Positions 17,122-31,720 of a DNA stretch of 51,924 bases are shown in pieces. Both the position numbers and the translations under genes were made by a program. The DNA is from Chloroflexota bacterium. Lineage in GTDB: Bacteria > Chloroflexota > Anaerolineae > Anaerolineales > Villigracilaceae. A model generated the notes under the pieces. It ran no database searches. It was not told the DNA's origin and saw only the letters and a list, made by a program, of their open reading frames with translations. The stretch lies in assembly GCA_021824575.1 (NCBI GenBank), contig JAKAKJ010000097.1:1-51924 (forward strand), given 5' to 3'. The stretch's first letter is position 1; every line of letters starts with the position of its first letter.

Positions 17122-17192
17122 CAAACGATTCGAATATCAAGCTTTCCATCTTGTAAAGCCGTTGTCATTTAAGTGCTTCTAATAGGTTGGGC

Positions 17193-17198
17193 TATAAT
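17193..17198 (+). promoter_or_regulatory. Putative -10 element of the sensor kinase gene
   Basis: TATAAT lies 12 nt before the ATG at 17211. No good -35 is seen at 16-18 bp (best TTAAGT, 3/6). Transcription would start about 5 nt before the start codon, giving a very short leader. Confidence 0.45.
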
Positions 17199-17210
17199 CA
17201 AAGGGCACTC

Positions 17211-20200
17211 ATGAGTTTCATCTTTACTCTTTTGGCGGGATTTCCTTATCCCATTCTGCCGACGCCGACGGGATGGTTGGTCTGGTTTCTGCTGCTGGGG
17301 TTGATCGTCTTTTTGTTGTATCGCTTGCGTCGAAACCAGCCAGCATGGAAGGCCCGTGAGTGGGGAATTTTTGCCGGCCTGCTGATCGCTGCGACGTTCG
17401 CAAGTTTATTCATCGGGATTCAACTGCCAGCCGGTTCAGCCCTGCCCCTGCCGAATTTTCCATCGGACCACGCGCCCGGTTCTTCGCTGATGCTCTTTTC
17501 CGCGATCCCGTGGATGCTGGCGGGCGGCCTGCTCGGACCGTTGGGCGCGGCGTTGGTCGGCGCGCTCGCGGGACTTTTGCGCGGCGTTTGGGATACTTAT
17601 AACTTTTTCACGCTCCTGGAATTTTCCCTGCTGGGCGTGTTGTTTTCGATCAGCGTTCGCCAGCGATTTCGCACGACTATTTATCAGATCACGCGCCAGC
17701 CAATCGTCAGCGCGCTGATTTTGATTCCGGTTCACGTTATCCTTTATGTGATCGCGGAATTTTTCAGCACGACGGCAGCCGTCCCGGCCGCGGCGCGCTT
17801 GGATTTTGCCATCAGCAACGCAGGCATTTCCGCTCTGGCGTTCAGCGGCGAGATGATCCTCGCAGGAATCGTGGTTCAATTGGCGGCGGCCGTTTTCTCG
17901 TCCGCGTGGGGAGCGAAGCAGCAGCTGCAACCGTCGCCCACAGAACAAAGTCTCGAGACGCGTTTCCTGTTCGGCACCGGCTCGTTCATTATCATCCTGC
18001 TCCTGGTCTTGTTGATCGGAGATTGGATTGTGGCTGGCAACAAAGCCAGCGACATGATTGAGAAGCGATTGAGCAGCACCGCGGAATCCGCCGCGCAGAC
18101 AGTTCCATTTTTCCTCGAAACAGGACAAAACCTGGCCGCGCAGACCGCGGCTGAGCCGCGCCTTTTGCAGGCCACCGACCCGGAACTTTCCGCGATCCTC
18201 GGCCAGCACATGCAGGCCGCGCCGTATTTCGATCAGCTTCTTGTTTTGGATACAGCAACCGGTTCATTATTGGGTGCGTACCCGACATCCGCGCGCCAGG
18301 GATTTTCACTGTATCCGCAGGAAAGCACCGGGATGCAGTTGGCGGCCAGCGGAGTGCTGACCCAAATTTATTCGATTCCATCTCTCACACCGGATGGCTC
18401 CGCGCATGTTTCATTCATGATCGGAATCGTCGGCCCTGCCGGACATGTTCAGCGCGTGTTGATCGGGCGCACAACGCTCTTGACCAATCCTTTAACCCAG
18501 CCATTGATCAAGAGTCTTCAAAGCATCAGCGATTTGAATGGCACAGGAATGCTGCTCGACGAGAATCGCCAGATCATCTATGCATTCTCGAAGACCAGTG
18601 TCCCATCCGCTTATGATGGCCCCGGTGAAGACACGCCGGTCTTTTATTCGTCCACCGCTCCGGACGGCACGCGCCAACTGGTTTATTTCCAGCCGGTCGT
18701 CGCGCGCCCGTGGTCCATCGTAATGACCGTCCCCGCGCAGCAGACGCAGCAACTTGCGCTCGACATTGCCATGCCCTTGTTCATGATGATTATCGTGCTG
18801 GCGGTCATCGCGCTGATCTCTTTGCGATTCGGTTTGCGCGTCATCACACGTTCGCTGCAGAATTTGGCTGTGGAAGCCAACCGCATCGCACAAGGCAAGC
18901 TCGACCATCCGCTTCAGGTAACCGGCGTGGACGAAGTCGGGCAATTGCGGCGCGCCTTCGAGCAGATGCGAATTAGTTTGGCGGCGCGGCTCGATGAGTT
19001 GAATCGTCTGCTGGTGGTGAGTCAGGGCGTGGCATCCAGCCTCGAGATGCAGGACACGGTCAAACCGGTGCTCGAAGCGGTGATGAACACCGGGGCCAAC
19101 GCGGTGCGCGTGGTTTTGCTGCCAGCCATCCTGCCCGAGACGCCCGTCGAATTGCCGACGCGATTTGCAGTCGGCCCGGCAAAGGACGCGTACGCGTATC
19201 TCGATGAACAAATCCTGAACATGGCGCAGCGTCAGGAGCGTATCGTTTTCCCGAATCTTTCCCGGACCCGCGAGCTGACCTTCGACCCGAAGCGTTTGCA
19301 GCCCGGGGCTTTGCTGGCCGTTGCCTTGCGTCACGAGAATCGATATTACGGCGTGGTGTGGGCCGCGTACGAACAGACGCGCAATTTCTCTGAATCGGAT
19401 GTGCGCTTTGTGACGACGCTCGCTGGTCAGGCTGCGCTGGCGGTTGCCAACGCGCGTCTATATTTGAACGTGGAAGTGGCGCGCCGCCAATTGGAAGCGA
19501 TTCTCGATTCGACGCCTGACCCGGTGCTGGTCATTGACCAGCATAATCGTGTCCTGCTGGCGAATCCCGCGGCGGGGCAGTCCCTCGATATTGACGTTTA
19601 TAAAGCAGGCGGGCAATCCATTGAAAAAATTGTCCATCAGAAACCATTGCTCGATTTGCTGCAGGCATCTGGAGAAAAGAAATCGGTCGAAGTAATATTG
19701 CCGGACAGACGAACTTATCTTGCCACGGCGTCGTCGGTGATCGCCGAGGGACACCTCTTTGGAAGAGTCTGCATCTTGCGCGACGTGACCAGTTTCAAGG
19801 AGCTTGACACGATGAAATCCGAGTTCGTCGCCACGGTCAGTCATGACCTGCGTTCGCCGCTGACGTTGATGCGCGGTTACGCCACGATGCTCGAAATGGT
19901 CGGTGAATTGAACGAGCAGCAGCAAAGTTACGTGAAGAAGATCGTGACCGGCGTCGAGAACATGACGCGGCTGGTCAACACGCTGCTTGATTTGGGACGA
20001 ATCGAATTGGGCGTCGGCCTGCAGGTTGAAAATGTGTCGGTGCTGGATATTTTGGAACGCGTGACCAGCGCGCTGCAATTGCAGGCCAGCCAAAAGAATA
20101 TTGTTTTCAATCTTGAGATTCCCAAAGACATGCCGCACGCCATTGAGGCGGATCAGGCCTTATTGCACCAGGCAATATATAATCTTGTCGAGAATGCCAT

Positions 20201-20513
20201 CAAGTACACGCCGGAAAAAGGCAGTGTCACTGTACGAACGCGGACGGAAAAGAATAATTTGATCTTTGAAATTCAGGATAACGGCATCGGCATCGAGCCG
20301 GAGGATATGCCGCGTCTGTTCGAAAAATTCTATCGAGGCAAACAACGCGAAGCGCGTGCCCAGCACGGCTCCGGGCTTGGACTCGCCATTGTCCGTTCGA
20401 TTGCGGAAAGTCACGGCGGGCGCGTCTGGGTGGAGAGTCAGCCTGGAAAGGGCAGCACATTCTATTTGTTGATTCCGCTCACACAGCCGAAGGAAGTCAA
20501 AACTGCGGCCTGA
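17211..20513 (+). CDS. Multidomain membrane sensor histidine kinase
   Basis: A 1100-aa sensor kinase. Residues 1 to about 230 hold six or seven membrane segments, including GGLLGPLGAALVGALAGLLR, which is reminiscent of the LytS-type 5TMR module. A second anchor (about 252-275) and a Cache-like extracytoplasmic sensor (about 280-515) follow, then a third anchor and HAMP (about 518-592), GAF (about 600-755) and PAS (about 765-870, ILDSTPDPVLVIDQHNRVLL). The HisKA domain has the phospho-acceptor His878 in TVSHDLRSPLTLMRGY. The ATPase domain has NAIKYTPEKG, DNGIGIEPEDMPRLFEKFYR and GSGLGLAIVRSIAESHGG. All catalytic boxes are intact. No response regulator is adjacent, so it is orphan here. The true start is ATG 17211; an upstream in-frame TTG overlaps the promoter. 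Confidence 0.9.
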   Translation: MSFIFTLLAGFPYPILPTPTGWLVWFLLLGLIVFLLYRLRRNQPAWKAREWGIFAGLLIAATFASLFIGIQLPAGSALPLPNFPSDHAPGSSLMLFSAIPWMLAGGLLGPLGAALVGALAGLLRGVWDTYNFFTLLEFSLLGVLFSISVRQRFRTTIYQITRQPIVSALILIPVHVILYVIAEFFSTTAAVPAAARLDFAISNAGISALAFSGEMILAGIVVQLAAAVFSSAWGAKQQLQPSPTEQSLETRFLFGTGSFIIILLLVLLIGDWIVAGNKASDMIEKRLSSTAESAAQTVPFFLETGQNLAAQTAAEPRLLQATDPELSAILGQHMQAAPYFDQLLVLDTATGSLLGAYPTSARQGFSLYPQESTGMQLAASGVLTQIYSIPSLTPDGSAHVSFMIGIVGPAGHVQRVLIGRTTLLTNPLTQPLIKSLQSISDLNGTGMLLDENRQIIYAFSKTSVPSAYDGPGEDTPVFYSSTAPDGTRQLVYFQPVVARPWSIVMTVPAQQTQQLALDIAMPLFMMIIVLAVIALISLRFGLRVITRSLQNLAVEANRIAQGKLDHPLQVTGVDEVGQLRRAFEQMRISLAARLDELNRLLVVSQGVASSLEMQDTVKPVLEAVMNTGANAVRVVLLPAILPETPVELPTRFAVGPAKDAYAYLDEQILNMAQRQERIVFPNLSRTRELTFDPKRLQPGALLAVALRHENRYYGVVWAAYEQTRNFSESDVRFVTTLAGQAALAVANARLYLNVEVARRQLEAILDSTPDPVLVIDQHNRVLLANPAAGQSLDIDVYKAGGQSIEKIVHQKPLLDLLQASGEKKSVEVILPDRRTYLATASSVIAEGHLFGRVCILRDVTSFKELDTMKSEFVATVSHDLRSPLTLMRGYATMLEMVGELNEQQQSYVKKIVTGVENMTRLVNTLLDLGRIELGVGLQVENVSVLDILERVTSALQLQASQKNIVFNLEIPKDMPHAIEADQALLHQAIYNLVENAIKYTPEKGSVTVRTRTEKNNLIFEIQDNGIGIEPEDMPRLFEKFYRGKQREARAQHGSGLGLAIVRSIAESHGGRVWVESQPGKGSTFYLLIPLTQPKEVKTAA

Positions 20514-20585: not shown

Positions 20586-21701
20586 ATGAATGAGAGAATG
20601 CAAATACATAGCCCCTCCAGCGTCGGTCTTGATGCGCTGCGCGAAGAACATCGGCAGGAACAGGCATTGTTCAACGCGCAGCCGCCGATTGTTCAACGCT
20701 TTCTCGAGACGCAGGCGAGGCAAATCGCGGAGGCCTACGTTGAGCGCGCATACAGCCTCCGCTTTACTTTGCCCGACCGCGTTGTTTGCAAAGCGGACGG
20801 CATCGCACAACCCGCCCCGGTTCCGCAGTCCCAACGCGAACAACACATTGGCACATTGATGGATCGGGTAGCCGGACGGGATGTCCATATGCTATTGCGC
20901 CAACGGCTGGCCGAGCTGGATCAATCCAGCGATCCAGCCATCGTCGCAAGCTCGAGTGTGATTCGCTATTCCACGGCCGCACACATGATCTATAACATGC
21001 TGCCATCGGGGCGGCGCGTGAATTATGTCGCGGCTGAAGATGAAGATATCCCAACGATTCCCGCGAGCGATGGAATGGAACCTGCGTCTGCGATCACCGC
21101 GACCACGGATGCGATTGCGGAGGAAGGCGGAGCCGAAGAGGGGCGCGGCAATCTGCTTGTCCCGTATGTTCCGGCAGCGCGTAGATTTTATCTTCCTCAA
21201 TGGGTCGCGTTCGATGACGAGGATAAGTTGCTGGTCAATTCGGTGAGCGAGGCTGAAGCGCACATCAAATCCATGCAGCAATTCATGAACGTGTTGTTTG
21301 CCGCGCGATCGCTGGCTCCGTACATGGTCGCGGATGATGAATATGAGATCAAACGTTTTGGAATGCTCGGCCAGTTGATCAATCAAGGGCGCGCACTGGC
21401 GCGTTACATGACCACCGACATTATTCAAACGGTCAAAGCGCGTGCCGAGGCGCAAAGTTTGAATCGTGGTCTGAGCCTGCGCCTGCCTTATTTTGACGAT
21501 CAGGACCTTGCCGTTGAGAATCACAATTTTGTGGTTATCCCTGCCGGACGCATCATGTTCGTTCCGGCCTTTGTGGTGCGCGCTGCCCGGGAAGAACAGG
21601 CAAAGGTTGCACAGGATACGCGTTTCAGTTCTTCCACGCGTAAACACTTGCTGAACGAACTCCAAATGCTGGAAGGAGCTTTCGAGGCTTCCGAAGATTA
21701 G
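20586..21701 (+). CDS. Unrecognised protein at the head of a K+ transport cluster
   Basis: A 371-aa protein I do not recognise. It has no signal peptide and no clear membrane helix. The N-terminal 130 residues are mostly helical and charged (LREEHRQEQALFNAQPPIVQ, RFLETQARQIAEAYVERAYS). A disordered acidic linker at about 135-180 (AAEDEDIPTIPASDGMEP) separates it from a second half with LVPYVPAARRFYLPQWVAF, several helices, and a hydrophobic stretch near the end (NFVVIPAGRIMFVPAFVVRA). The gene is preceded by AAAGGGAAG, 6 bp before the ATG. It ends 20 bp before the KimA-like K+ importer gene, so it is likely co-transcribed with it and may be an accessory or regulatory partner. That role is inference. 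Confidence 0.7.
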   Translation: MNERMQIHSPSSVGLDALREEHRQEQALFNAQPPIVQRFLETQARQIAEAYVERAYSLRFTLPDRVVCKADGIAQPAPVPQSQREQHIGTLMDRVAGRDVHMLLRQRLAELDQSSDPAIVASSSVIRYSTAAHMIYNMLPSGRRVNYVAAEDEDIPTIPASDGMEPASAITATTDAIAEEGGAEEGRGNLLVPYVPAARRFYLPQWVAFDDEDKLLVNSVSEAEAHIKSMQQFMNVLFAARSLAPYMVADDEYEIKRFGMLGQLINQGRALARYMTTDIIQTVKARAEAQSLNRGLSLRLPYFDDQDLAVENHNFVVIPAGRIMFVPAFVVRAAREEQAKVAQDTRFSSSTRKHLLNELQMLEGAFEASED

Positions 21702-21721
21702 TTTTCCCCTCGGGTAGGAAA

Positions 21722-23569
21722 ATGTTGTTCTCCATTGGTTTGTTGTTGGTCATCATCTATGTGTCTTTCAAGATCGCGCCGGTTGAGAAGGCGGAGCACG
21801 CGCACATCCATGGCGCAGGGCAGATCGGTTTGCTGGCTGCGCTGGCGCTTTTCGGCGTGGACTACTTTACTTCATATTACTATGCCACGGGCGAGTTGAT
21901 GAGTGCCCTGCATCCGTATGGCCTGCAGGATAAAGCCTGGATCGTTGTCCTCATCATTGCTTTTACGAATGCTGTGTTTGGATTCCTGTACATGTATTCG
22001 CTGGGAATTTTCAACGAGGGCGGCGGATCGTACACAGCTTCCATGCGTTATCTTTCGCCAGGAATCAGTCTTGTTGTGGCCGTTGTATTGATCCAGGATT
22101 ATATTTTTACAATTGTGGTGTCCAGCCTTTCAGGCGTGGACCAATTGCTTTCCATCGTCAATGCGTATGGCATGTACTGGCTATGGCGTTTTCTCCTGGC
22201 GGCATTGCTGGCCGCGATCACTTGGTATCTGACCATCCGCGGACGCGGTGAGTCTGCCCGCGTGGTATTCACCGGTCTCGGCATCTTTGGCCTTTTGACA
22301 CTTGTGATGGCGATTGGTTTGTTTATTGCCAAATTTAAAGGCGTCCCTCCTGTGCCTTATACGGAACCTGTTCAGCCTGCGACGATATGGCAGGCCGCGT
22401 ACCACATGTTGACTGCTTCCATGAAAGGGTTGGTGGCTTTAACCGGTTTGGAAGCGATGTCCAACGGCATCCAGTTTGTGATTAACGAAGATGCAGGGAT
22501 CGTCAAGTGGGGGAAGAAACATTTGCCTAAATTGCGGGGCTTATGGAACTTCTACAGCGGCAAAGCAGGGATCGGACGTTTTGTTCAAACTTCTTTTTTG
22601 TTCTATGGCGGCGTCACAACGGCTTTGCTGGCTTACTTTGCCGCGCACTTCAATGTCTTTGATGGGACGCTGGGACGATCATTGGTTGCCAATCTGTCAT
22701 ATATTGGTTTTACGCAAATTCCTGGCGGAGAAATATTGTATTGGGTGTATCAGGCTCTGGCAGTTGGCCTATTGGCTGCCGCATCCATGACGGCTTTTCA
22801 GGATTTGCAAGCCACTGCCTGGCGCGATGTTGCGATTGGCGAGATTCCCGAGATTGTGGTCTATCGAAATCCACAGGGAACTTTTACGCGCTCGGTAACG
22901 GCCGGTTTCATTGTTGCTGTAGTGATTCAATTTTTGGTTCGCGCCAATACGAGCGCCGCAGTCCCGTATTATGGGATTGGCGTTTTCATGCCGATCATGA
23001 TGATGGGTTTTGCCATTCGCAAACATATCCTTGAAACTTTCAAAGGCGCCGCGCGCAAATGGGGAGCTTTGGCCGCCGGATTTGCAGGTGTGCTTTCCGG
23101 GGTTGTCTTTATCGGCCAGATCGCTGGCAAATGGACGGAAGGCGGATGGGTGGTGCTTATTTCATTTACAGTTTTGGTGATCGCGGCCAACGCGCTTTTG
23201 ATTTCCCCTCGAGGATACCGCGCACCCACGCAAATCCACCGGATCGTGCGCGAGAAAGCCCGCGTTCAGGGTTCGATGGCTTCCATCGTCGAGTGGCAAT
23301 CTCTCAAAATGCAGGAGTATCGCCATTCGATGCGCGGGCGGATCTTGGCAGGCATAAGCCAGTTCTTCGAAATATTCGGCGTGCGTCGTCCGTTGCGCTA
23401 CGAGCCGGAACCTATTCCAGCTGGCGATTATGACGATGCTTTGCACGTGGACCGCCCCGATGCCCCATCGCTTCTTGAACAATATCTCGAAAGCAAACCG
23501 CGTCAACCCAAAGTGGGCGGCACGCCAAAAGAAACAGCCACCGGGAACGAAGAAGGCCGCGAAGAATAA
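21722..23569 (+). CDS. KimA-like APC-superfamily potassium importer
   Basis: A 615-aa polytopic permease, predicted to import K+ with protons. By eye it aligns with Bacillus subtilis KimA (YdaO). The seven K+-contact residues I recall for KimA (D36, Y43, T121, S125, T230, E233, Y377) all have counterparts here: D47 and Y54 in GVDYFTSYYYATGE, T130 and S134 in DYIFTIVVSS, T241 and E244 in LTGLEAMSN, Y417 in PYYGIGVFMP. Unlike KimA there is an extra N-terminal helix, and the cytosolic tail of about 110 residues does not look like a universal-stress domain. The neighbours are a P-type cation ATPase and two RCK proteins, which supports K+ as substrate. A general amino-acid permease is the main alternative. 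A hairpin terminator follows 5 bp after the stop. Confidence 0.78.
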   Translation: MLFSIGLLLVIIYVSFKIAPVEKAEHAHIHGAGQIGLLAALALFGVDYFTSYYYATGELMSALHPYGLQDKAWIVVLIIAFTNAVFGFLYMYSLGIFNEGGGSYTASMRYLSPGISLVVAVVLIQDYIFTIVVSSLSGVDQLLSIVNAYGMYWLWRFLLAALLAAITWYLTIRGRGESARVVFTGLGIFGLLTLVMAIGLFIAKFKGVPPVPYTEPVQPATIWQAAYHMLTASMKGLVALTGLEAMSNGIQFVINEDAGIVKWGKKHLPKLRGLWNFYSGKAGIGRFVQTSFLFYGGVTTALLAYFAAHFNVFDGTLGRSLVANLSYIGFTQIPGGEILYWVYQALAVGLLAAASMTAFQDLQATAWRDVAIGEIPEIVVYRNPQGTFTRSVTAGFIVAVVIQFLVRANTSAAVPYYGIGVFMPIMMMGFAIRKHILETFKGAARKWGALAAGFAGVLSGVVFIGQIAGKWTEGGWVVLISFTVLVIAANALLISPRGYRAPTQIHRIVREKARVQGSMASIVEWQSLKMQEYRHSMRGRILAGISQFFEIFGVRRPLRYEPEPIPAGDYDDALHVDRPDAPSLLEQYLESKPRQPKVGGTPKETATGNEEGREE

Positions 23570-23574
23570 GTTTG

Positions 23575-23611
23575 AACGGGAGACCAGTTTGGAATTACGT
23601 CTCCCGTTTTT
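23575..23611 (+). terminator. Hairpin with T-tract abutting the ATPase start codon
   Basis: AACGGGAGAC (23575-23584) and GTCTCCCGTT (23599-23608) form a perfect 10-bp stem with a 14-nt loop, followed by TTT and then at once ATG 23612. It has the form of a rho-independent terminator. Because the next gene starts at the end of its T-tract, it may instead attenuate or separate expression of the pump from the importer. Confidence 0.7.
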
Positions 23612-26425
23612 ATGCAACCAATGAGTACGACTCCGATTTACAGCTTGCGCGCCGCCGATGTTTACAAGGCCCTCGAAACTTCGCCCGAGGGTCTATCCAG
23701 TTCAGAAGCTGAATCGCGGCGTTCGTTATACGGTTCCAATCTGATCTCCGAACAAAAACAAATTTCAATATTGGAAAGATTGGCCGGCCAGCTTGTTCAT
23801 CCGCTGGCGCTGGTCTTGATTGCTGCGGGCGCGCTCATGTTCTTTTCCGGCGATCTGATTTTGGGAATCGTCATCTGGATTCTCGTACTGGCCAATCTTG
23901 GATTTTCATTCTGGCGCGAATATCGCGCGGAACAGGCGATTGAAAAACTGCGGCAAATCCTTCCGGCATATGCCCGCGTCATTCGGGACGGGGAGGATGT
24001 TCACTTGCCTGCGAGTGAGCTTGTCCCCGGCGACGTTTTGATTCTGGCTGAAGGCGATAACATTTCGGCGGATGCGCGCGTGGTGGAGGAATTTGGGCTG
24101 CGCACCAATAACGCCACGCTGACGGGCGAAGCGGTTCCCGCGCGCAAAACATCCGATCCTTCGCTTCCAAGCGGGATGAGTGATCTGGAACGTCCCAATT
24201 TGATTTTTGCCGGCACCTCGGTCGCATCTGGTACGGGGCGCGCGGTGGTTTATGCCACCGGCATGTTGACCCAGTTCGGGCGCATCGCACAGTTGACGCA
24301 GACTGTCAAAGAAGAGCCGACGCCGTTTCAAATCGAGCTATCCCGCCTTAGCCGCCGGACGACCATGATCGCTCTGGGCATTGGAGCTGTTGTTGCCGTG
24401 GTTGGTTTTTTCCAATTGCGCATGAGTTATCAGGCGCTGATCTTTCTCACACTGGGAATCATCGTAGCGGCCATCCCGGAAGGTTTGCAGGCCACGCTAA
24501 CGCTCTCGATGGCGATGGCCGTTCAACGTCTCGCACAGAGAAACGTGCTGGCGAAGAAACTGTCCATCGTGGAGACGTTGGGTTCCGTCTCGGTCATCTG
24601 CACTGATAAAAGCGGGACGCTGACTCAAAACCAAATGACTGTGCGCGAAATTTGGGTGGCGCGCCAGCGTATCAAAGTGTCTGGCGTGGGATATGAACCA
24701 AGGGGCGACTTTTCGCCATCCCCGTTTGACCAGCCTTATAAAGAAGATTGGATGCAATTGTTGCAAGCCGCGTTTTTCTGCAACAATGCGCGCATCAATC
24801 CGCCTTCGCCCGAACATCCGCATTGGACGAGTTTGGGCGACCAAACCGAGGCGGCGATGAAAGTTGCCGCGTTGAAGGCGGGCTTGAAGGAAGATGAATC
24901 GGTGAACACGTGTCCGCGCATTCACGAAATCCCATTCGATGCGCGCCGGAAACGCATGACCACAATCCATCGTTTAGCGGATCACGAAGTGGCTTTTGCC
25001 AAAGGTGCGCCGCGCGAAGTTCTTCAGCTTTGTTCGAAAATTTCGATCAATGGAAATATTGTTCCGTTGGATAATGCCCTGCGCGCCGAAATTCTTGCGG
25101 CCCACGATGATTATGCGCGCGGTGCGCTGCGCGTGCTGGCTTTGGCGCGCCGCGATCTGCCTCTGCGCTCCGGCCCGTACACCGTCGAGAACGTGGAACG
25201 CGATCTAACGTTCCTCGGTTTGATGGCGATGATGGACCCGCCGCGTCCCGAGGTGGAAGAAGCAATTCAAGTTTGCCGCCAGGCTGGCATCCGCTTGGCG
25301 ATGATTACCGGTGATTATGGCTTGACGGCTGAATCCATTGCACGGCGCGTTGGCATGATCACCACGCCAAACCCCGTTATTCTGACAGGTGCAGAACTCG
25401 AAGCCATGAATGATGCGGAATTGCAATCGCTTCTAAAACAGGACGTCATTTTTGCGCGCATGGCGCCCGAACATAAACTGCGGCTGGTTTCTGCGTTCCA
25501 GTCGCGCGGCGATGTGGTTGCAGTAACCGGCGACGGCGTGAATGACGCGCCCGCGCTTCGCAAAGCGGATGTCGGAGTCTCGATGGGCATGATCGGCACG
25601 GATGTTGCCAAGGAAGCCGCGGATATTATTTTGACAACCGACAATTTTGGCGCCATCATTGCCGCCATCGAGGAGGGCCGCGCGGTATTTGATAACATTC
25701 GAAAATTCATCACTTATATTTTTTCGAGCAACATTCCAGAAATCCTCCCATTTATTGTGACTGCTTCCGTTCCGACCATCCCGGCTGCACTGACCGTCCG
25801 GCAAATTTTGGCAGTTGACCTCGGCACCGACCTTTTTCCCGCTCTTGCGCTTGGCATGGAAAATCCTGAACCGGATGTGATGCAGCGCAAACCCCGCCCG
25901 CGCAATAAGCCTTTGCTGGACCGCGGTGTGATTGGACGCGCTCTTTGGCTGGGTTCCATCGAAGCTGCGCTTTGTTACACTGGTTTCTTCGCGGTCTATT
26001 TGTTCTCGGGCAATGCCGCGATTCTGCAAATTCCCTTGCTGGCTTCGATTGCAGTGCCTCCAGCTTTGAGTTTCATCCTGGGCCCCGAGCAAGTTTACGG
26101 AGTTGCCATCACGGTATTTCATGCCGGAGTGGTCATGTCCCAAGTTGGCAACGCGTTCGCCTGCCGGTCTTCGAAGATCCGAAGCTCGCACCTGGGATGG
26201 TTCAAGAATCGATATTTGCTGTTGGGCGTTCTGATCGAAGTTGTCGGCATTCTTTTGCTGATCTACGTGCCTGTTCTCGCGCACGCGTTCAATCATGTCC
26301 CGTTGCCGCCGCGTTACTGGCTGGGGTTCCTTCTGTATCCGCTCGTGCTATACTCGCTGGAGTGGATACGTAAAGCAATTGGCCGTCGCATGGATCGTAT
26401 CCGCGGTGATCAACCGCCCGGATAA
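23612..26425 (+). CDS. P2C-like (Na+,K+-ATPase type) cation-transporting P-type ATPase
   Basis: A 937-aa P-type ATPase that pumps cations at the cost of ATP. It has an N-terminal cation_ATPase_N domain, an actuator with LTGEAVPAR, phosphorylated Asp332 in DKSGTLTQNQMTV (Ser where most have Thr), FAKGAPREV for nucleotide binding, and the hinge GDGVNDAPALRKADVGVSMG. The ion-site helices match Na+,K+-ATPase, not Ca2+ pumps. M4 is AAIPEGLQATLT (E290), M5 is SSNIPEILPF (S706, N707, E710, same spacing as S775/N776/E779), and M6 is DLGTDLFPAL (D736, D740, as D804/D808). The C-terminal part NRYLLLGVLIEVVGILLLIY also fits. Start at ATG 23612 or 23621; neither has a clear Shine-Dalgarno. No beta subunit is encoded nearby. 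Ion specificity is inferred. Confidence 0.85.
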   Translation: MQPMSTTPIYSLRAADVYKALETSPEGLSSSEAESRRSLYGSNLISEQKQISILERLAGQLVHPLALVLIAAGALMFFSGDLILGIVIWILVLANLGFSFWREYRAEQAIEKLRQILPAYARVIRDGEDVHLPASELVPGDVLILAEGDNISADARVVEEFGLRTNNATLTGEAVPARKTSDPSLPSGMSDLERPNLIFAGTSVASGTGRAVVYATGMLTQFGRIAQLTQTVKEEPTPFQIELSRLSRRTTMIALGIGAVVAVVGFFQLRMSYQALIFLTLGIIVAAIPEGLQATLTLSMAMAVQRLAQRNVLAKKLSIVETLGSVSVICTDKSGTLTQNQMTVREIWVARQRIKVSGVGYEPRGDFSPSPFDQPYKEDWMQLLQAAFFCNNARINPPSPEHPHWTSLGDQTEAAMKVAALKAGLKEDESVNTCPRIHEIPFDARRKRMTTIHRLADHEVAFAKGAPREVLQLCSKISINGNIVPLDNALRAEILAAHDDYARGALRVLALARRDLPLRSGPYTVENVERDLTFLGLMAMMDPPRPEVEEAIQVCRQAGIRLAMITGDYGLTAESIARRVGMITTPNPVILTGAELEAMNDAELQSLLKQDVIFARMAPEHKLRLVSAFQSRGDVVAVTGDGVNDAPALRKADVGVSMGMIGTDVAKEAADIILTTDNFGAIIAAIEEGRAVFDNIRKFITYIFSSNIPEILPFIVTASVPTIPAALTVRQILAVDLGTDLFPALALGMENPEPDVMQRKPRPRNKPLLDRGVIGRALWLGSIEAALCYTGFFAVYLFSGNAAILQIPLLASIAVPPALSFILGPEQVYGVAITVFHAGVVMSQVGNAFACRSSKIRSSHLGWFKNRYLLLGVLIEVVGILLLIYVPVLAHAFNHVPLPPRYWLGFLLYPLVLYSLEWIRKAIGRRMDRIRGDQPPG

Positions 26426-26446
26426 CTTGGAGAGGAGGTGCGTAAT

Positions 26447-27106
26447 ATGAGAGTCATAGTGATGGGGTGTGGGCGCGTTGGGCTTCAGGTGAGTCAGATA
26501 CTGGTGAGCCAGGGCCATGATGTGACTGTGATTGATCACGATGCCAATGCCATTGCCAAGCTTGGCCCGAACTTCAAAGGAAAAGTTGTGCGCGGACTTG
26601 GCTTTGATCGAGATGTCTTAACAGAGGCGGGTGTCGAAAGGGCGGAGGCGTTTGTAGCCGCCAGTTCCTCTGATAATGCCAACATCGTTGCGGCACGGAT
26701 TGCGCGCAAAATATTTCAAGTGCCGCGCGTGGTGGCGCGTCTTTATGATCCGCTGCGCGCCGAAATCTACCAGCGGCTGGGGCTGATCACGGTCTCGACC
26801 ACGAATTGGGGAGCGGAGCGAATCTGCGAAGTGGTTACGCACACCGACCTGGATGTGATTTATACATTTGGCCGCGGCGAAGCCTCGCTGGTTGTGATCG
26901 AAGCGCCGCCGCAATTGGCCGGGCGCACCGTGAATCACTTGAATGTTCCGGGCGAAATCTCGGTGGTAAGCATCGTCCGCGACGGCCAGGCTTTCATCCC
27001 GGTGACCGGGTCGGCGTTCCAGGATGGCGACCGCGTTTACCTGACCGTGGTTTCCTCCGCGATGGAACGGCTCGAGCAGATGATTGGAATGGAAGGGAGG
27101 ATGTAG
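26447..27106 (+). CDS. TrkA-type RCK (KTN) potassium channel/transporter regulator
   Basis: A 219-aa cytosolic regulator. The N-terminal RCK_N Rossmann domain has the dinucleotide motif MGCGRVGLQVSQIL, the acidic strand end TVIDHDANAIAKL, and the conserved FVAASSSDNANIVAARIA. The C-terminal RCK_C domain (about 135-210) has GEISVVSIVRDGQAFIPV and FQDGDRVYLTV. Such proteins bind NAD(H) or ATP/ADP, and sometimes c-di-AMP, and gate Trk/Ktr K+ uptake. The start is ATG 26447, 8 nt after a strong AGGAGG (26433-26438); a GTG at 26438 lies inside that Shine-Dalgarno and is rejected. It directly follows the P-type ATPase gene. No TrkH/KtrB pore subunit occurs in the window, so its partner is unknown. 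Confidence 0.88.
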   Translation: MRVIVMGCGRVGLQVSQILVSQGHDVTVIDHDANAIAKLGPNFKGKVVRGLGFDRDVLTEAGVERAEAFVAASSSDNANIVAARIARKIFQVPRVVARLYDPLRAEIYQRLGLITVSTTNWGAERICEVVTHTDLDVIYTFGRGEASLVVIEAPPQLAGRTVNHLNVPGEISVVSIVRDGQAFIPVTGSAFQDGDRVYLTVVSSAMERLEQMIGMEGRM

Positions 27107-27108
27107 CC

Positions 27109-27813
27109 ATGATTGTTATAGTCGTTGGCGGCGGAAATACCGGCTCTTACCTTGCCCAAGTCTTGCTGGATGCCGGGCATCAAGTCAAAGTGATTGAAGA
27201 GCGCGCGGCTCTGCTCGAAAAGTTGAAGCAGGAGTTGCCCGCGGAAGCAATTGTTGAAGGCGATGGCAGTTCGCCGACTGTTCTGGAAAAGGCAGGCGTT
27301 TTGCAAGCCAACGCCCTTGCCGCCGTGACCGGCTCGGACGATACCAATCTGGTCATCACCTCGCTGGCGCGTTTCGAGTTCAATGTCCCGCGCGTGATTG
27401 CGCGTGTCAACAATCCAAAGAATGCCTGGTTGTTTAACGCGGAAATGGGCGTGGATGTGTTTCTCAATCAGGCCGAGATTCTCGCACAGCTGGTTGCGGA
27501 GGAAATGTCGCTGGGCGACATGATGACGCTGCTCAAACTTCGCCGCGGCAACTATTCTGTTGTCGAGGAAAAGATTCCGCCGGGCGCCAAAGGCATCGGC
27601 ATGGCGCTGAAAGATATCCGATTCGAAGAGCAATGCGTCATCGCCGCCATCATTCGCGACGGCAAAATGACCTTACCGCGCGGCGAAAGCATTTTCCAGG
27701 AAGGCGATGAGATAGTGGCAATAGCCAGTCCGGAAGGCGCAAAAATGCTGGCCGAATTGCTGGCGCACCCGGTGTATCCGAAACGCGAGCCAAAGGATAA
27801 ACCGCCGATCTAA
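27109..27813 (+). CDS. Second TrkA-type RCK protein
   Basis: A 234-aa paralogue of the preceding protein. RCK_N carries VGGGNTGSYLAQVLLDAGHQ and AVTGSDDTNLVITSLARFEF; RCK_C carries QCVIAAIIRDGKMTLPRGES and FQEGDEIVAIA. The start is ATG 27109, 2 bp after the previous stop, with GGGAGG (27095-27100) as ribosome site lying inside the end of the upstream gene. The close spacing implies co-translation, and the pair may form a hetero-oligomeric gating ring, as paired RCK proteins can. Sequence between the two is clearly divergent, so the duplication is old. Confidence 0.87.
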   Translation: MIVIVVGGGNTGSYLAQVLLDAGHQVKVIEERAALLEKLKQELPAEAIVEGDGSSPTVLEKAGVLQANALAAVTGSDDTNLVITSLARFEFNVPRVIARVNNPKNAWLFNAEMGVDVFLNQAEILAQLVAEEMSLGDMMTLLKLRRGNYSVVEEKIPPGAKGIGMALKDIRFEEQCVIAAIIRDGKMTLPRGESIFQEGDEIVAIASPEGAKMLAELLAHPVYPKREPKDKPPI

Positions 27814-27815
27814 AA

Positions 27816-27845
27816 TTGACCGAATCCAAATCTTTACGGTATAAT
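27816..27845 (+). promoter_or_regulatory. Sigma-70-type promoter of the rpmH operon
   Basis: TTGACC (27816-27821, 5/6) and TATAAT (27840-27845, 6/6) are separated by 18 bp. The -10 lies at the centre of a perfect palindrome, ACGGTAT-A-ATACCGT (27836-27850). Transcription would start about 90 nt before rpmH, leaving a real leader with GTGAGGAACG ahead of the ATG. Confidence 0.75.
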
Positions 27846-27940: not shown

Positions 27941-28111
27941 ATGACCAAGCGAACTTATCAACCCAAGATCCGCCGCCGCGTGCGCGTGCACGGATTTCGC
28001 GCACGCATGGCAACTGCCGATGGGCGCGCGGTTCTAAAGCGGCGCCGCCTGCGCGGACGCTACAAGCTGACCGTCAAGTCGAACGAGCACGTGAAGCGGA
28101 CTCGCTGGTAA
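27941..28111 (+). CDS. rpmH: 50S ribosomal protein L34
   Basis: A 56-aa highly basic ribosomal protein of the large subunit. The family core is clear: [20 protein letters not shown] followed by [20 protein letters not shown]. After the usual end, a tail [16 protein letters not shown] extends the protein about 10 residues beyond the 44-46 aa that are common. The ATG has GTGAGGAAC upstream. It begins the conserved rpmH-rnpA-yidD-yidC-khpB order and has its own strong promoter. Confidence 0.95.
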
Positions 28112-28163
28112 ATCTTGAGCGGTGTGACGAAATACGCAGACTTCCTTTCCCAACGAGGTACGG

Positions 28164-28514
28164 GTGCAGCGCAAATTCCGCCTGACCCGGTCGGAAGATT
28201 TCAAGCGGGTGCGGCGATTTGGCAAGTCTTATGCCCACCCGCTTGTCGTGTTGATAGCTCAGACGAATGACGAAGCCCAACTGCGCGTTGGCGTGGCCGC
28301 AGGTCGGACGGTGGGAACGGCTGTGAAACGGAACCGCGCCAAACGTCTGATGCGCGAAGCGATGCGGAGTCTCATCCCCAACATCGCCCCCGGCTGGGAC
28401 TTGATCCTGATCGCTCGTCCCGCGCTTTTATCTTCCACTTTGACCGAAATCCGCGAAACCCTGCTGACGCTTTTGCGCCGCGCCGAACTGGTTTCCCCGA
28501 CTGATGCAACCTGA
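28164..28514 (+). CDS. rnpA: Ribonuclease P protein component
   Basis: A 116-aa basic protein that assists the RNase P RNA in maturing the 5' ends of tRNAs. The signature is the RNR region AGRTVGTAVKRNRAKRLMRE (about residues 46-65), with the N-terminal FRLTRSEDFKRVRRFGKS typical of the family. The start is GTG 28164, preceded by ACGAGGTACGG. It lies 52 bp after rpmH and overlaps yidD by 11 bp. Length is normal. Confidence 0.93.
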   Translation: MQRKFRLTRSEDFKRVRRFGKSYAHPLVVLIAQTNDEAQLRVGVAAGRTVGTAVKRNRAKRLMREAMRSLIPNIAPGWDLILIARPALLSSTLTEIRETLLTLLRRAELVSPTDAT

Positions 28515-28797
28515 ATTCTATTTGCCGCACGAATATCCAAACGAGCCGCGTCTGCGGGATTTGCCGCGTACGCCTAAGAATTTACTTCGCATTCCGCTGC
28601 TGGCTTTGATTCGCCTATATCAAATGACTTTGTCACATGCCATGCCTGAAGGCACGTGCCGGTTTTATCCGTCGTGTTCTCATTATGGTTATCAGGCAAT
28701 CTATAAGCACGGCGCATTCAAAGGTTCGTTCATGGCGGCTTGGCGCGTGCTTCGTTGTAATCCGTTTAATCCCGGGGGATACGACCCCGTTCCATAG
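28504..28797 (+). CDS. yidD: Membrane protein insertion efficiency factor YidD
   Basis: A 97-aa small protein that assists membrane protein insertion together with YidC. The family core is LLALIRLYQMTLSHAMPEG, then CRFYPSCSHYGYQAIYKHG with the paired Cys, and WRVLRCNPFNPGGYDPVP at the end. The N-terminal 25 residues (MQPEFYLPHEYPNEP and following) are an extension that is not part of the core. It overlaps rnpA by 11 bp, as expected for this locus. Confidence 0.93.
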   Translation: MQPEFYLPHEYPNEPRLRDLPRTPKNLLRIPLLALIRLYQMTLSHAMPEGTCRFYPSCSHYGYQAIYKHGAFKGSFMAAWRVLRCNPFNPGGYDPVP

Positions 28798-28814
28798 GAG
28801 TTTGAATTCTTTCG

Positions 28815-29885
28815 ATGAAACGTTTCGCATTGATCTTGTTTGTTTTACTTGGCGCAGTTCTTTTGAGCGCGTGTTCTGCTTCTGCCCAAAGTGTAAGCTG
28901 GCCCGGCTTGTCCGCGGATGCCAATAACGCCTATCTTGCCAAGGGCCAGTTTGTGTATGCCGTTCGACTAAGCGATGGCGCAAAAGTCTGGCAGTATCCG
29001 GCTTCGGGAGGCTCACAAATCTTCGATGCCAATCCCGTTCTCACACCGGATGGACAATTGCTGGCTGCAAGCGCGGGAAGCGATAATGGCTTGTACAGCA
29101 TTGATCCGGCCACCGGAAAAGACAAATGGAGCGCGCCTTTTACCGCGCCGGATCATTGGGTTGCCGCACCGCTGGTGCTTCAAGACACGATTTATGCGGC
29201 CAACAATAATGGAATCCTTTATGCGCTCAAACTTGCCACAGGCGAGAAGCTATGGTCTTTGCCGCTGGGTCATTCGCTGTGGGGCACGCCAGCCACGGAT
29301 GGCAAACTGATCTTCGTCCCATCGCTGGATCATTTCCTTTATGCGGTGGATCCGCAGGCGCAGAAGATCGCATGGAAAGTTGACCTCGGCGGCGCGGCGG
29401 CTGGCTCGCCTGTTGTCAGCACAGATGGAAAGACCGTCTATGTGAGTTCGTCTGCGAAGAAGTTGTTCGCGCTGGATGCAACGACCGGCTCGATCCAATG
29501 GACGGCGAACACCACCAATTGGGTTTGGAACGCGCCCGCTCTCAGCGGCGATACGCTTTTCGCTTCTGACATCAGCGGCAATGTTTACTCCATTGGCACG
29601 GTCAACGGAAAGAATGCCTGGCCGGTGGTCCAGCCGGATGGGCCGATCACGGGAAGTCCGCTTGCAATCCAAAACGGGGTGGCAGTCGCGACCGAATCCG
29701 GTTTCATTTATGCGTTTGACGCTCACGGCGCTCCGTTGTGGAACATCAGCGTCGGCGGAAACATATATACGTCACCAATCGCATCCGGTAATCTGATTCT
29801 CGTTGCGCCGTTGAATGCTGATTTTATGCTTGCCGGCGTGTCCAATGATGGCAAGCAGATTCTTTGGAAGTTTACAGGCAAGTAA
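28815..29885 (+). CDS. PQQ-repeat (BamB-like) beta-propeller lipoprotein
   Basis: A 356-aa predicted lipoprotein. The signal peptide ends in the lipobox LLSAC with Cys20, so it should be anchored on the outer face of the membrane. The rest is a series of PQQ-like blades, with repeated patterns such as VYAVRLSDGAKVWQYPASGG, LYSIDPATGKDKWSAPF, LYALKLATGEKLWSLPLG, LYAVDPQAQKIAWKVDLGG and LFALDATTGSIQWTANTT, consistent with a seven- or eight-bladed propeller. BamB works in outer-membrane assembly in diderm bacteria, but Chloroflexota generally lack that system, so another scaffold role is likely. Its place between yidD and yidC suggests a link to membrane protein insertion, which is inference. 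Confidence 0.85.
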   Translation: MKRFALILFVLLGAVLLSACSASAQSVSWPGLSADANNAYLAKGQFVYAVRLSDGAKVWQYPASGGSQIFDANPVLTPDGQLLAASAGSDNGLYSIDPATGKDKWSAPFTAPDHWVAAPLVLQDTIYAANNNGILYALKLATGEKLWSLPLGHSLWGTPATDGKLIFVPSLDHFLYAVDPQAQKIAWKVDLGGAAAGSPVVSTDGKTVYVSSSAKKLFALDATTGSIQWTANTTNWVWNAPALSGDTLFASDISGNVYSIGTVNGKNAWPVVQPDGPITGSPLAIQNGVAVATESGFIYAFDAHGAPLWNISVGGNIYTSPIASGNLILVAPLNADFMLAGVSNDGKQILWKFTGK

Positions 29886-29896
29886 AGGAAGCACCT

Positions 29897-30715
29897 ATGG
29901 GAGCTATCTGGGATCAATTTATCACTCTGTTTACCAATGTCCTGCTCTTGATTTATAACTTTCTTGGACATGGCGAGAACGCGTTTGGCGTTGCCATTAT
30001 TTTGTTTACAATCCTGATCCGCGCAATCACCTGGCCGCTCAATGCCCAGCAGTTGAAAGGCGCCAAGGCCATGCAGGATTTGCAGAACGATAAAGAGTGG
30101 CAGGACATTCAGAAAAAATATGCAAAAGACCGCGAGAAACTGGCGCAGGAACAAATGCGGATTTACAAGGACCGCGGCATCAACCCGTTTGCATCCTGCC
30201 TGCCGACGCTGATCCAGTTTCCGATCATCATCGGCTTGTATCAAAGCATCATCCGCGCGCTGGCTGCGTCTCCGCTTGGACTGCTTCAGTTGGCGCGCAG
30301 TGTATATCCATTCATGAACATTGCGGCGCTGGTCCCGCTCAACAGCAAATTCCTGTGGATGGACCTTGGCCGTCCTGAGGGCATTCCGTTTCCGGGCGGG
30401 TTCACGCTTTCATTTTTGCCTTACGGCTTTCCAACACTGGCAATCATCGTGGCGCTGACAACCTATCTTCAGACCAAACTGACGATGCCGCCATCCACCA
30501 ATCCCGGCGACCAGACTGCGGCCATGAACAGCATGATGAGCATCTACATGCCATTGTTTCTTGGCTGGCTGGTGCTCAATTACGCTTCGGGGCTGGCGGT
30601 TTATTTTGTCACCAGCAATGTGCTTGGCATCGTTCAATACGCCATGATGGGACGCGTCAACTGGCGCAATGTTTTGCCGGGCGGCGGAAAACCTGCTCCA
30701 GCAAAGAAGAAATAG
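29897..30715 (+). CDS. yidC: Membrane protein insertase YidC/Oxa1
   Basis: A 272-aa insertase of the short (Oxa1/SpoIIIJ-like) type without the large periplasmic domain. The first core helix carries the conserved Arg in ILFTILIRAITWPLNAQQ. A cytosolic hairpin follows (AMQDLQNDKEWQDIQKKYAK), then ASCLPTLIQFPIIIGLYQSI, and later helices include LVLNYASGLAVYFVTSN. The C-terminus is basic (GKPAPAKKK), as in ribosome-contacting YidC forms. The start is ATG 29897 with AAAGGAAG upstream; an upstream in-frame TTG lies within the preceding gene. It catalyses insertion and folding of membrane proteins, alone or with SecYEG. Confidence 0.93.
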   Translation: MGAIWDQFITLFTNVLLLIYNFLGHGENAFGVAIILFTILIRAITWPLNAQQLKGAKAMQDLQNDKEWQDIQKKYAKDREKLAQEQMRIYKDRGINPFASCLPTLIQFPIIIGLYQSIIRALAASPLGLLQLARSVYPFMNIAALVPLNSKFLWMDLGRPEGIPFPGGFTLSFLPYGFPTLAIIVALTTYLQTKLTMPPSTNPGDQTAAMNSMMSIYMPLFLGWLVLNYASGLAVYFVTSNVLGIVQYAMMGRVNWRNVLPGGGKPAPAKKK

Positions 30716-30731
30716 ATTCAGGGAGGCCTCC

Positions 30732-31592
30732 ATGACTGAACGGACGACGTTGGAAATTATTGCTCCAACTGTGGAAGAAGCATTGGCTCAGGGATTGGCA
30801 CAACTTGGTTTGCCTGCGGAGGCGGTGTCGGTCGAAGTGCTGGATGCCGGAAACAAAGGTCTCTTTGGATTGGGCGGACGTCAGGTGCGCGTGCGATTAA
30901 CGGTGAACGCTCCTGGCGAGGAACCAGCCAAGCCGGCCGCACCCGCTTCGAGCGCCGCCCCGAGCCGCCGCGCTGCGATCGAAGGGAGTGTTGTCGAAAC
31001 CGCGCCGAAGGGTCCAACTAAAGAAACGGCTCCCGTTTCGAAGGCGGAACCTGTCAAGAAGCCTGAACCCGTCAAGAAAGCAGAGTCTGCCAAAAAAGCG
31101 GAGTCGCCATCCATCCCGGATGGGCATGATCCGGTCCTCGATAAAGCTGAAGCTGTTATTTCAAAACTGCTTTTCCAAATGGGATTGCAGGCGCAGGTTT
31201 CGGCCCATTACGGCGAAGCGCGCGAAGATCGCCGACCGATCATGGTGGATATTCGCGGCGGAGACCTGGGCGTTTTGATTGGCCGGCGCGGCGAAACGTT
31301 GAATGCGTTCCAGTATGTCGCGTCATTGATGGTTGGCAAAGAGACAAATCAATTTGCTCAATTGATCGTGGACGTGGAAGGCCACCGCGACCGCCGCGAG
31401 CGCCAACTGCGACAGCTTGCGCGGCGCATGGCCGAGCAGGTGACCAAATCGGGCCGCAAGCTGACGCTCGAACCGATGACCGCCGCCGAACGCCGCATCA
31501 TCCACATGGAATTGAGGGATCATCCGGCGGTGACGACACAGAGCACCGGCGAAGAACCGCATCGCAAAGTCACAATTTTGCCGAAAGAATAG
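30732..31592 (+). CDS. khpB: Jag/KhpB RNA-binding protein
   Basis: A 286-aa cytosolic RNA-binding protein. The N-terminal Jag_N domain (about 1-55) has LEIIAPTVEEALAQGLAQLG and GNKGLFGLGGRQVRVRL. A low-complexity linker of Ala/Pro and Lys-Pro-Glu-type repeats follows (about 62-130, for example PVKKPEPVKKAESAKKAES). The KH domain has the GxxG loop in GVLIGRRGETLNAFQYVASL, and the R3H domain ends the protein (GHRDRRERQLRQLARRMAEQ, with LEPMTAAERRIIHMEL). The start ATG 30732 has GGGAGG upstream. It normally follows yidC, as here, and a terminator closes the operon. KhpB acts with KhpA in some bacteria in RNA regulation of cell division and envelope growth. Confidence 0.92.
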   Translation: MTERTTLEIIAPTVEEALAQGLAQLGLPAEAVSVEVLDAGNKGLFGLGGRQVRVRLTVNAPGEEPAKPAAPASSAAPSRRAAIEGSVVETAPKGPTKETAPVSKAEPVKKPEPVKKAESAKKAESPSIPDGHDPVLDKAEAVISKLLFQMGLQAQVSAHYGEAREDRRPIMVDIRGGDLGVLIGRRGETLNAFQYVASLMVGKETNQFAQLIVDVEGHRDRRERQLRQLARRMAEQVTKSGRKLTLEPMTAAERRIIHMELRDHPAVTTQSTGEEPHRKVTILPKE

Positions 31593-31614
31593 CCATAGAT
31601 TTGCATGATTTATG

Positions 31615-31660
31615 AAAGACGAGAGACCAAAATGATAGGTTTTTCGTCTTTTTTCTTTTT
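31615..31660 (+). terminator. Terminator after khpB
   Basis: AAAGACGA (31615-31622) and TCGTCTTT (31644-31651) pair, with an inner ACC/GGT pairing, and a T-rich run (TTTCTTTTT) follows. Downstream copies of GGAAAGACGAAAGA words (31661-31690) show that the area is repeat-derived. Confidence 0.6.
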
Positions 31661-31685
31661 GGAAAGGAGGAAAGACGAAAGAAGA

Positions 31686-31714
31686 AAGACATCGTATTTT
31701 TCTCACGGTATAAT
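31686..31714 (+). promoter_or_regulatory. Promoter giving a leaderless PfkB-kinase mRNA
   Basis: AAGACA (31686-31691, 4/6) and TATAAT (31709-31714, 6/6) are 17 bp apart. Only 6 nt separate the -10 from ATG 31721, so transcription should begin at the start codon itself. There is no room for a Shine-Dalgarno. Confidence 0.65.
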
Positions 31715-31720
31715 CTGTTC

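Follow-up and report, generated by a model that had tools for sequence, protein, structure and literature searches.

KimA of Bacillus subtilis is a K+/H+ symporter of the KUP type (PDB 6s3k, 8b70 and 8b71); the roles of its residues in K+ and H+ handling are those given in the relevant part of PMC6994465, and its cytosolic domain (residues 462-606) binds cyclic di-AMP (c-di-AMP), which is contacted by Arg337, according to the corresponding sections of PMC10284832. The two-subunit TrkA of Thermotoga maritima (TM1088A/B) is described in PMC4380455 as an octameric ring, which works with the TrkH protein TM1089. Archaeal gene products resembling the Na+,K+-ATPase were still functionally uncharacterised as of 2023, in the section of a review that deals with them (PMC10654040). 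Relatives of these systems are found side by side in a Chloroflexota contig (JAKAKJ010000097.1, assembly GCA_021824575.1), where five adjacent genes encode a protein of 371 amino acids (aa) belonging to no recognised family (ORF371), a KimA-type carrier (KimA2), a P2-type ATPase and two RCK proteins (RCK1 and RCK2). The whole stretch of 51,924 nucleotides was analysed and is referred to as the window; its source genome, in which it is contig C87, amounts to 3.64 Mb and is 98.2% complete.

The five open reading frames (ORFs) all exist and run head to tail along the + strand, as described in an earlier note on this DNA. ORF371 (20586..21701) is followed by KimA2 (21722..23569), the ATPase (23612..26425), RCK1 (26447..27106) and RCK2 (27109..27813), with intergenic gaps of 2-42 bases, and the set is located between a sensor kinase gene (17187-20513) and rpmH-rnpA. 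A scan of a genome collection with the ORF371 alignment provided 79 loci, corresponding to the best 80 of 115 matches and therefore selected on ORF371; all are titled as Chloroflexota or subgroups of it (three group names were checked), bar one 'uncultured bacterium'. Among the 53 loci which could be assessed, having at least 6.5 kb downstream of ORF371, KimA2, the ATPase, RCK1 and RCK2 follow in identical order in 41, which rules out a chance neighbourhood. ORF371 is directly followed by KimA2 in 68 of 75 cases, by the ATPase in six and by another ORF371 in one; a second ORF371 is inserted in one of the 53 loci. The earlier note had proposed conservation of the order in related genomes as a check, and dispersal of the genes as grounds for abandoning its view; the genes are neighbours in the relatives. 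The five genes are real and their order is conserved. With moderate confidence, we regard them as one module for K+/Na+ homeostasis, in which the KUP-type carrier, and perhaps also the pump, would be controlled by the RCK pair and ORF371.

The window KimA2 matches no Pfam or NCBIfam model, and AA_permease_2 is matched by 7 of 45 members of its family. The only solved relative found by sequence in the PDB is B. subtilis KimA (E 6.6e-14, or 2.8e-22 when the family profile is used), which also provides the best fold matches (E 2e-12, TM about 0.6) for an AlphaFold2 model of the protein (pLDDT 78, pTM 0.78), with amino-acid transporters ranking behind. The two proteins share a homologous transmembrane core and the same K+/H+ residues: positions D36, Y43, D117, T121, S125, E233 and Y377 of KimA are kept in all 80 KimA2 proteins from the loci of the ORF371 scan, and the position of T230 is occupied by T or S. 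Unlike KimA, the usual form of KimA2 is 600 aa long, has a conserved C-terminal tail of its own and lacks the cytosolic c-di-AMP domain. Alignments of the window protein to KimA stop within the transmembrane part, and in two partly overlapping sets the domain is present in 3/51 and 0/82 copies, all three from genomes without an ORF371 match, while ORF371 is found just upstream of 40/51 and 71/82 copies. In addition, the position of Arg337 is occupied by Glu in 80/80 KimA2 proteins (Glu377 in the window); among 39 KimA-type proteins of the relatives, 33 have Arg at this position, five have Lys and one has Gly. Because the c-di-AMP domain is missing and Arg337 is replaced, KimA2 is, judging from its sequence, a KUP-type carrier but not a strict KimA orthologue. 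The window genome encodes a diadenylate cyclase.

The partner of KimA2, ORF371, was called unrecognised in the earlier note and is so still: no match was found in Pfam, NCBIfam, PHROGs or among PDB sequences, where a profile search gave one match at chance level (E 0.35). Its AlphaFold2 model (pLDDT 86, pTM 0.83) has no Foldseek match at E<=0.001 in PDB or BFVD, and the best VIA-align result, Z 5.0 over 114 residues with a root mean square deviation of 7.0, is under the level that the tool considers telling. The protein looks soluble, composed of helices plus a few strands. Co-occurrence was surveyed in 101 genomes, i.e. the window genome and 100 relatives. ORF371 is present in 31 of them, all of which also encode KimA2; the carrier is found in 35, a number which rises to 36 with a KimA2 fragment located at the start of a contig in G038, so that four of 35, or five of 36, lack ORF371. 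Three of these (G002, G005 and G028) encode a KimA2 fused to the KimA cytosolic domain, 749-751 aa long in two of them; in G078 the KimA2 gene begins 220 bases from a contig end, and the G038 fragment is cut by one. In a sample of 400 Chloroflexota genomes, six contain ORF371. From this distribution we infer that ORF371 may replace in trans what the lost c-di-AMP domain did in cis.

Some further observations concern the two proteins. The fused-domain KimA2 genes are located at L097:8495-10744, L098:8569-10824 and in L099 from about 9210, in genomes without an ORF371 match; the position expected for ORF371 is taken in L097 by the gene for a protein of 244 aa, whose C-terminal part is hydrophobic. 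In two genomes only the C-terminal part of ORF371 is matched, directly before KimA2 genes (G040:C253:8470-8784 and 10930-11241; G100:C44:4126-4470), over about 100-115 aligned residues, in open frames of 148-160 aa. Since these partial matches immediately precede KimA2 genes, the C-terminal half of ORF371 may be a putative KimA2-binding part.

RCK1 and RCK2 each contain TrkA_N and TrkA_C; in both the GxGxxG motif is intact and the second strand is followed by an acidic residue. They are likely to sense nucleotides, as predicted from the intact motifs. They are separate proteins encoded in tandem, as in T. maritima; RCK2 is closer to TM1088B than to TM1088A (E 1.7e-26 vs 4e-13), RCK1 is about equally similar to both and carries TrkA_C, whereas only the TrkA_N family is given for TM1088A in the description of PMC4380455. 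T. maritima has the TrkH protein TM1089, while in the window genome no TrkH-type channel was found: TrkH/KtrB (PF02386) and Ion_trans_2 (PF07885) both gave 0 matches, the same searches being positive, in each case, in 11 of 14 control genomes. A Kup of the PF02705 type was not found in it either. Two-subunit RCK rings are so far known to act on channel-type TrkH/KtrB, and in this genome, given the lack of TrkH/KtrB and Ion_trans_2 matches, the RCK pair is without its usual partner.

The same holds for many relatives. In the 101 genomes, when RCK2 is called at E<=1e-30, PF02386 is found in 13, RCK2 in 65 and both in 7, and 58 of the 65 RCK2-bearing genomes thus gave no match to a Trk/Ktr membrane subunit. 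Of 73 RCK2 copies, 65 are located less than 6.5 kb downstream of a KimA-family gene on the same strand, which is KimA2 in 28 cases and another KimA-family gene in 37. The other eight include a copy which follows two KimAs (G005) and one which follows ORF371 and the pump (G071), as seen in the fetched sequences. The frequent lack of a Trk/Ktr match and the position of RCK2 after KimA-family genes suggest that RCK proteins can serve KUP carriers, as other TrkA pairs may do. A case in Mycobacterium tuberculosis may be mentioned, where a KimA-like gene, Rv2690c, presumably lies beside the genes for CeoB and CeoC. These two TrkA-type proteins, which can be set beside the RCK pair by description only, are described as a Trk system in PMC4553272 and PMC6375644, neither of which uses the names TrkH or TrkG in its main text.

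The pump, which belongs to the E1-E2 ATPase family, was compared with pig Na+,K+-ATPase alpha-1 by aligning 51 homologues. The equivalents of E327, Y771, S775, N776, E779, D804, D808 and Q923 are kept in 51/51 pumps, T807 in 50 and E954 in 44; the residues of cation sites I/II (E327, S775, N776, E779, D804 and D808), whose roles in Na+,K+-ATPase are well established, are thus found throughout. A family profile built on 40 members (the window protein and 39 of the 51) scores 695 bits against Na+,K+-ATPase, 662 against the Listeria Ca2+ pump LMCA1, 626 against SERCA and 613 against SPCA, and as a family the pumps fit Na+,K+-ATPase better than the Ca2+ pumps. The closest described counterparts are the alpha subunit of Na+,K+-ATPase (P2C) and its archaeal homologues, as presented in part of PMC10654040, with cation residues shared at eight positions and the best family-profile score. 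The pumps are peculiar in their phosphorylation motif, which is DKSGT instead of DKTGT in 51/51 (Asp332 in the window), and in the A-domain motif TGES, which is mostly TGEA. In the open-access literature, as far as the texts searched go, the string DKSGT was matched only in work on Acinetobacter baumannii vaccine design and on a Giardia protein. For the beta subunit, PF00287 gave 0 matches in the genome, in a search which was positive in 0 control genomes. The known parts of the locus point to K+ or Na+, in agreement with the earlier note.

The same chromosomal site (cmk-plsC-kinase ... rpmH-rnpA-yidC) is occupied in relatives by an ordinary full-length KimA gene, followed by RCK1 and RCK2 in the same order as in the cassette, with neither ORF371 nor pump. 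Four such loci were found, two with both flanks (L108 and L109), one with the cmk-plsC-kinase flank only (L104) and one with both flanks and no kinase (L112); the KimA of L109 matches PDB KimA over nearly its whole length (E 2.7e-134). Twenty further stretches were fetched, and since 18 of them had been picked for RCK2 beside a KimA-type gene, the linkage of the two in these is a matter of selection. These 18 and G005 contain KimA-RCK1-RCK2 without a pump, with a sensor kinase of about 1100 aa upstream in 14 of the 19 and RnpA visible downstream in 10; the twentieth, G071, contains ORF371-ATPase-RCK1-RCK2. Within the genus of the window, the site carries KimA in G002 and G005 and the cassette in G000, G001 and G003.

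In trees of the two RCKs, with 52 rows for RCK1 and 48 for RCK2, obtained by a quick search with no bootstrap and with some long branches flagged, the cassette type is separated from the KimA type with SH-aLRT values of 100 and 97, respectively. The window sequences group with the cassette type and the loci of fused-domain KimA2 with the KimA type, and three genomes holding both systems (G011, G018 and G061) have in each the RCK type proper to it. Since both window RCKs belong to the cassette clade, the block was most likely exchanged as one unit at this site, and the insertion of three new genes beside retained local RCK genes is rejected. From the split of the clades by partner type, and from the genomes which keep both RCK types, each RCK pair appears dedicated to the genes beside it. 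The earlier note had judged the composition of the cluster unusual: this stands for ORF371, the stripped KimA2 and the pump, which are new, and not for the joining of a KimA with paired RCKs, which is common in relatives and often found beside rnpA.

The upstream region was surveyed in 67 loci with at least 3 kb of sequence before ORF371, by searching over 3.5 kb. A KdpD-like kinase and a KdpE-like regulator are both found in 32 of them, and at least one of the two in 40; these labels are those of the best tblastn matches, and the NCBIfam check made in L057, L078 and L096 gave best matches below the cut-offs. The kinase upstream of the window cassette (17187..20513, + strand) is of another type than KdpD, containing HAMP, GAF, PAS, HisKA and HATPase_c domains and a weak 5TMR-type match at the N-terminus; its best NCBIfam model is PnpS, below cut-off. 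This kinase may regulate whichever K+ operon occupies the site, and is not part of the cassette. A second KimA2 gene of the window genome lies in a kdp cluster, in the order kdpA-kdpB-DUF4118 protein-kdpC-kdpE-KimA2-kdpD, where KdpA, KdpB and KdpC pass the curated cut-offs, while KdpD and KdpE are best matches below theirs; the DUF4118 protein between kdpB and kdpC is encoded at L057:6793-7542. The cassette is linked to the Kdp system (KdpFABC with KdpDE), and with it to K+, by the regulators often found upstream and by the location of the KimA2 paralogue. The transport proteins differ, and the pump is not KdpB, to which it is 25% identical.

On what was observed, namely the order of the genes, their co-occurrence, the conserved residues, the negative channel searches and the RCK clades split by partner, a working model can be based, in which the substrates and directions of transport, the gating by the RCKs and the role of ORF371 are all conditional. 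KimA2 would import K+ together with H+ by the mechanism of KimA, with K+ held at D47, T130 and Y417 of the window protein and the proton at E244. The P2-type pump would be driven by ATP and expel Na+, probably taking in K+ in return. A two-subunit ring of the TrkA type, formed by RCK1 and RCK2, would read nucleotides and gate KimA2, perhaps also the pump; the carrier is proposed as the target because the searches of the genome gave no Trk/Ktr channel. ORF371 would be a cytosolic partner standing in for the c-di-AMP-binding domain lost by KimA2, and the KdpD/KdpE-like pair found upstream in many relatives would switch the module on at low K+. The fullest version of the model, with a KUP carrier of the LeuT fold gated by the two-subunit RCK ring, ORF371 as a detachable substitute for the c-di-AMP domain and a pump of the Na+,K+-ATPase type coupled to them in one operon, is put forward tentatively and is less likely than not.

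A number of results weigh against the control of the carrier by its neighbours and against the assignment of the pump. Of the site III residues Q923, D926 and E954, the second is Asn in 50/51 pumps and the third is kept in only 44. The window pump, taken singly, finds LMCA1 as its best PDB match, at 489 bits vs 485 for Na+,K+-ATPase, and in NCBIfam the PMR1-type Ca2+ model outscores the Na/H,K one, with 588, 549 and 524 bits for the PMR1, Na/H,K and SERCA types; none of the three passes its cut-off, which for the curated P2C model, TIGR01106, is 946 bits. The term 'P2C-type' of the earlier note is therefore borne out by the cation site, and not by the curated model or by the Asp926 position. 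ORF371 and KimA2 occur alone, without pump or RCK and with Kdp-like regulators nearby, in 7 of the 53 loci, and ORF371-ATPase-RCK1-RCK2 without KimA2 in between in four; this is the weakest point of the model, since the RCKs and ORF371 accompany the pump alone in some loci, where either could be serving the pump instead, and ORF371 accompanies KimA2 alone in others. KimA2 copies with neither an adjoining ORF371 nor a fused domain are 6/51 and 4/82 in the two partly overlapping sets, the paralogue in the kdp cluster of the window genome being one of them, and the fused-domain cases are few, three in all, two from one genus. No c-di-AMP riboswitch was seen, as Rfam matched no structured RNA in the window and nothing but three tRNAs in the 8 loci searched out of the 79. 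Finally, five plasmid-borne KimAs, out of 103 records, are not beside an RCK pair, so that the link between KimA and RCK is not universal.

Two of these plasmids may be described further. Near the KimA of a Priestia plasmid a single NAD-binding K+ protein is encoded, on the opposite strand. The KimA of a plasmid of Leptolinea sp. HRD-7, a member of the Anaerolineae (L210, AP024711.1), is annotated as an amino acid permease, has no RCK neighbours and is 65% identical to the chromosomal KimA of L109.

The carrier, the pump and the RCKs could also be separate devices, not joined in a physical complex and co-regulated as a response to low K+ or high Na+, with the RCKs acting on some other transporter, such as two other long ORFs of the window genome, which bear TrkA_C. 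The Kdp-type regulators upstream of many copies, the modular variants of the cassette and the presence of these two ORFs would agree with such an arrangement; the tight association between ORF371 and KimA2, the split of the RCKs into two clades by partner and the fact that both long ORFs have a TrkA_C domain of their own nevertheless make it rather improbable.

Alternatively, the RCK pair and ORF371 could belong to the pump and make up with it an ATPase complex of the Na+,K+ type that is subject to regulation, KimA2 being just co-expressed. The four loci without KimA2, the six in which ORF371 directly precedes the ATPase, a second ORF371 located before the ATPase in L178 and the separate clade formed by RCK1 of the pump-bearing cassettes would all agree with this. 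It is nonetheless unlikely, as 37 of 73 RCK2 copies follow a KimA-family gene other than KimA2, 19 fetched stretches contain no pump, the ORF371-KimA2 pair is without a pump in the seven loci mentioned above, and none of the 101 genomes has ORF371 but not KimA2. That the cluster should consist, as ordinary annotation would have it, of an amino-acid permease, a Ca2+ pump and two Trk regulators with no common function is very improbable, even given the few AA_permease_2 matches and the LMCA1 score, since a PDB search with the KimA2 profile retrieves KimA alone and the K+ residues are kept, the cation site of the pump is that of Na+,K+-ATPase, which its family profile also prefers, and the order is conserved; the grouping with permeases and Ca2+ pumps, which the earlier note had named as fatal to its proposal, is not what these comparisons indicate. 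We thus return to a single homeostasis module, with RCKs and ORF371 controlling the carrier, as the preferred reading.

As to the gene calls, start codons were refined from the spacing of ribosome sites. The start of RCK1 is most likely the ATG at 26447, preferred over the GTG at 26438 because the latter overlaps a site of the AGGAGG type; RCK2 most likely starts at the ATG at 27109, a 335-aa ORF from 26806 being an over-extension. A promoter-like TTGACC-18-TATAAT, a consensus match only (11/12), lies on the + strand between RCK2 and rpmH (27816..27845), in a region holding 8 promoter-like sites vs 5.3 expected in shuffles; its position suggests that the transcription unit of the cassette may end before this candidate promoter and that a new one starts at rpmH. 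The adjoining segment of the window (27941-33351) contains rpmH, rnpA and YidC-like, Jag-like and ParA-like genes, as read from the translations, and because of these neighbours the cassette is probably located near the replication origin. The five genes have a G+C content of 0.52-0.57, spanning the window mean of 0.539, and a recent acquisition of foreign DNA is unsupported by composition.

In the open-access literature searched, no description was found of the cassette, of ORF371, of a KimA accompanied by an RCK pair or of RCKs working with a KUP carrier, as far as the texts covered go. Taken one by one, the transporters are of known kinds; what is new to us is the way they are combined, together with the stripped carrier and ORF371. 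ORF371 represents a well-conserved protein family without a match in the libraries used, and for its predicted structure, although modelled with confidence, Foldseek finds nothing significant in the PDB. The pump is a bacterial relative of the archaeal Na+,K+-ATPase-like products, found in a conserved K+ operon with its natural partners. If the fullest version of the model is true, the cassette would provide a functional setting for a prokaryotic Na+,K+-ATPase-like pump, and could explain more generally the function of TrkA pairs where a genome has no TrkH.

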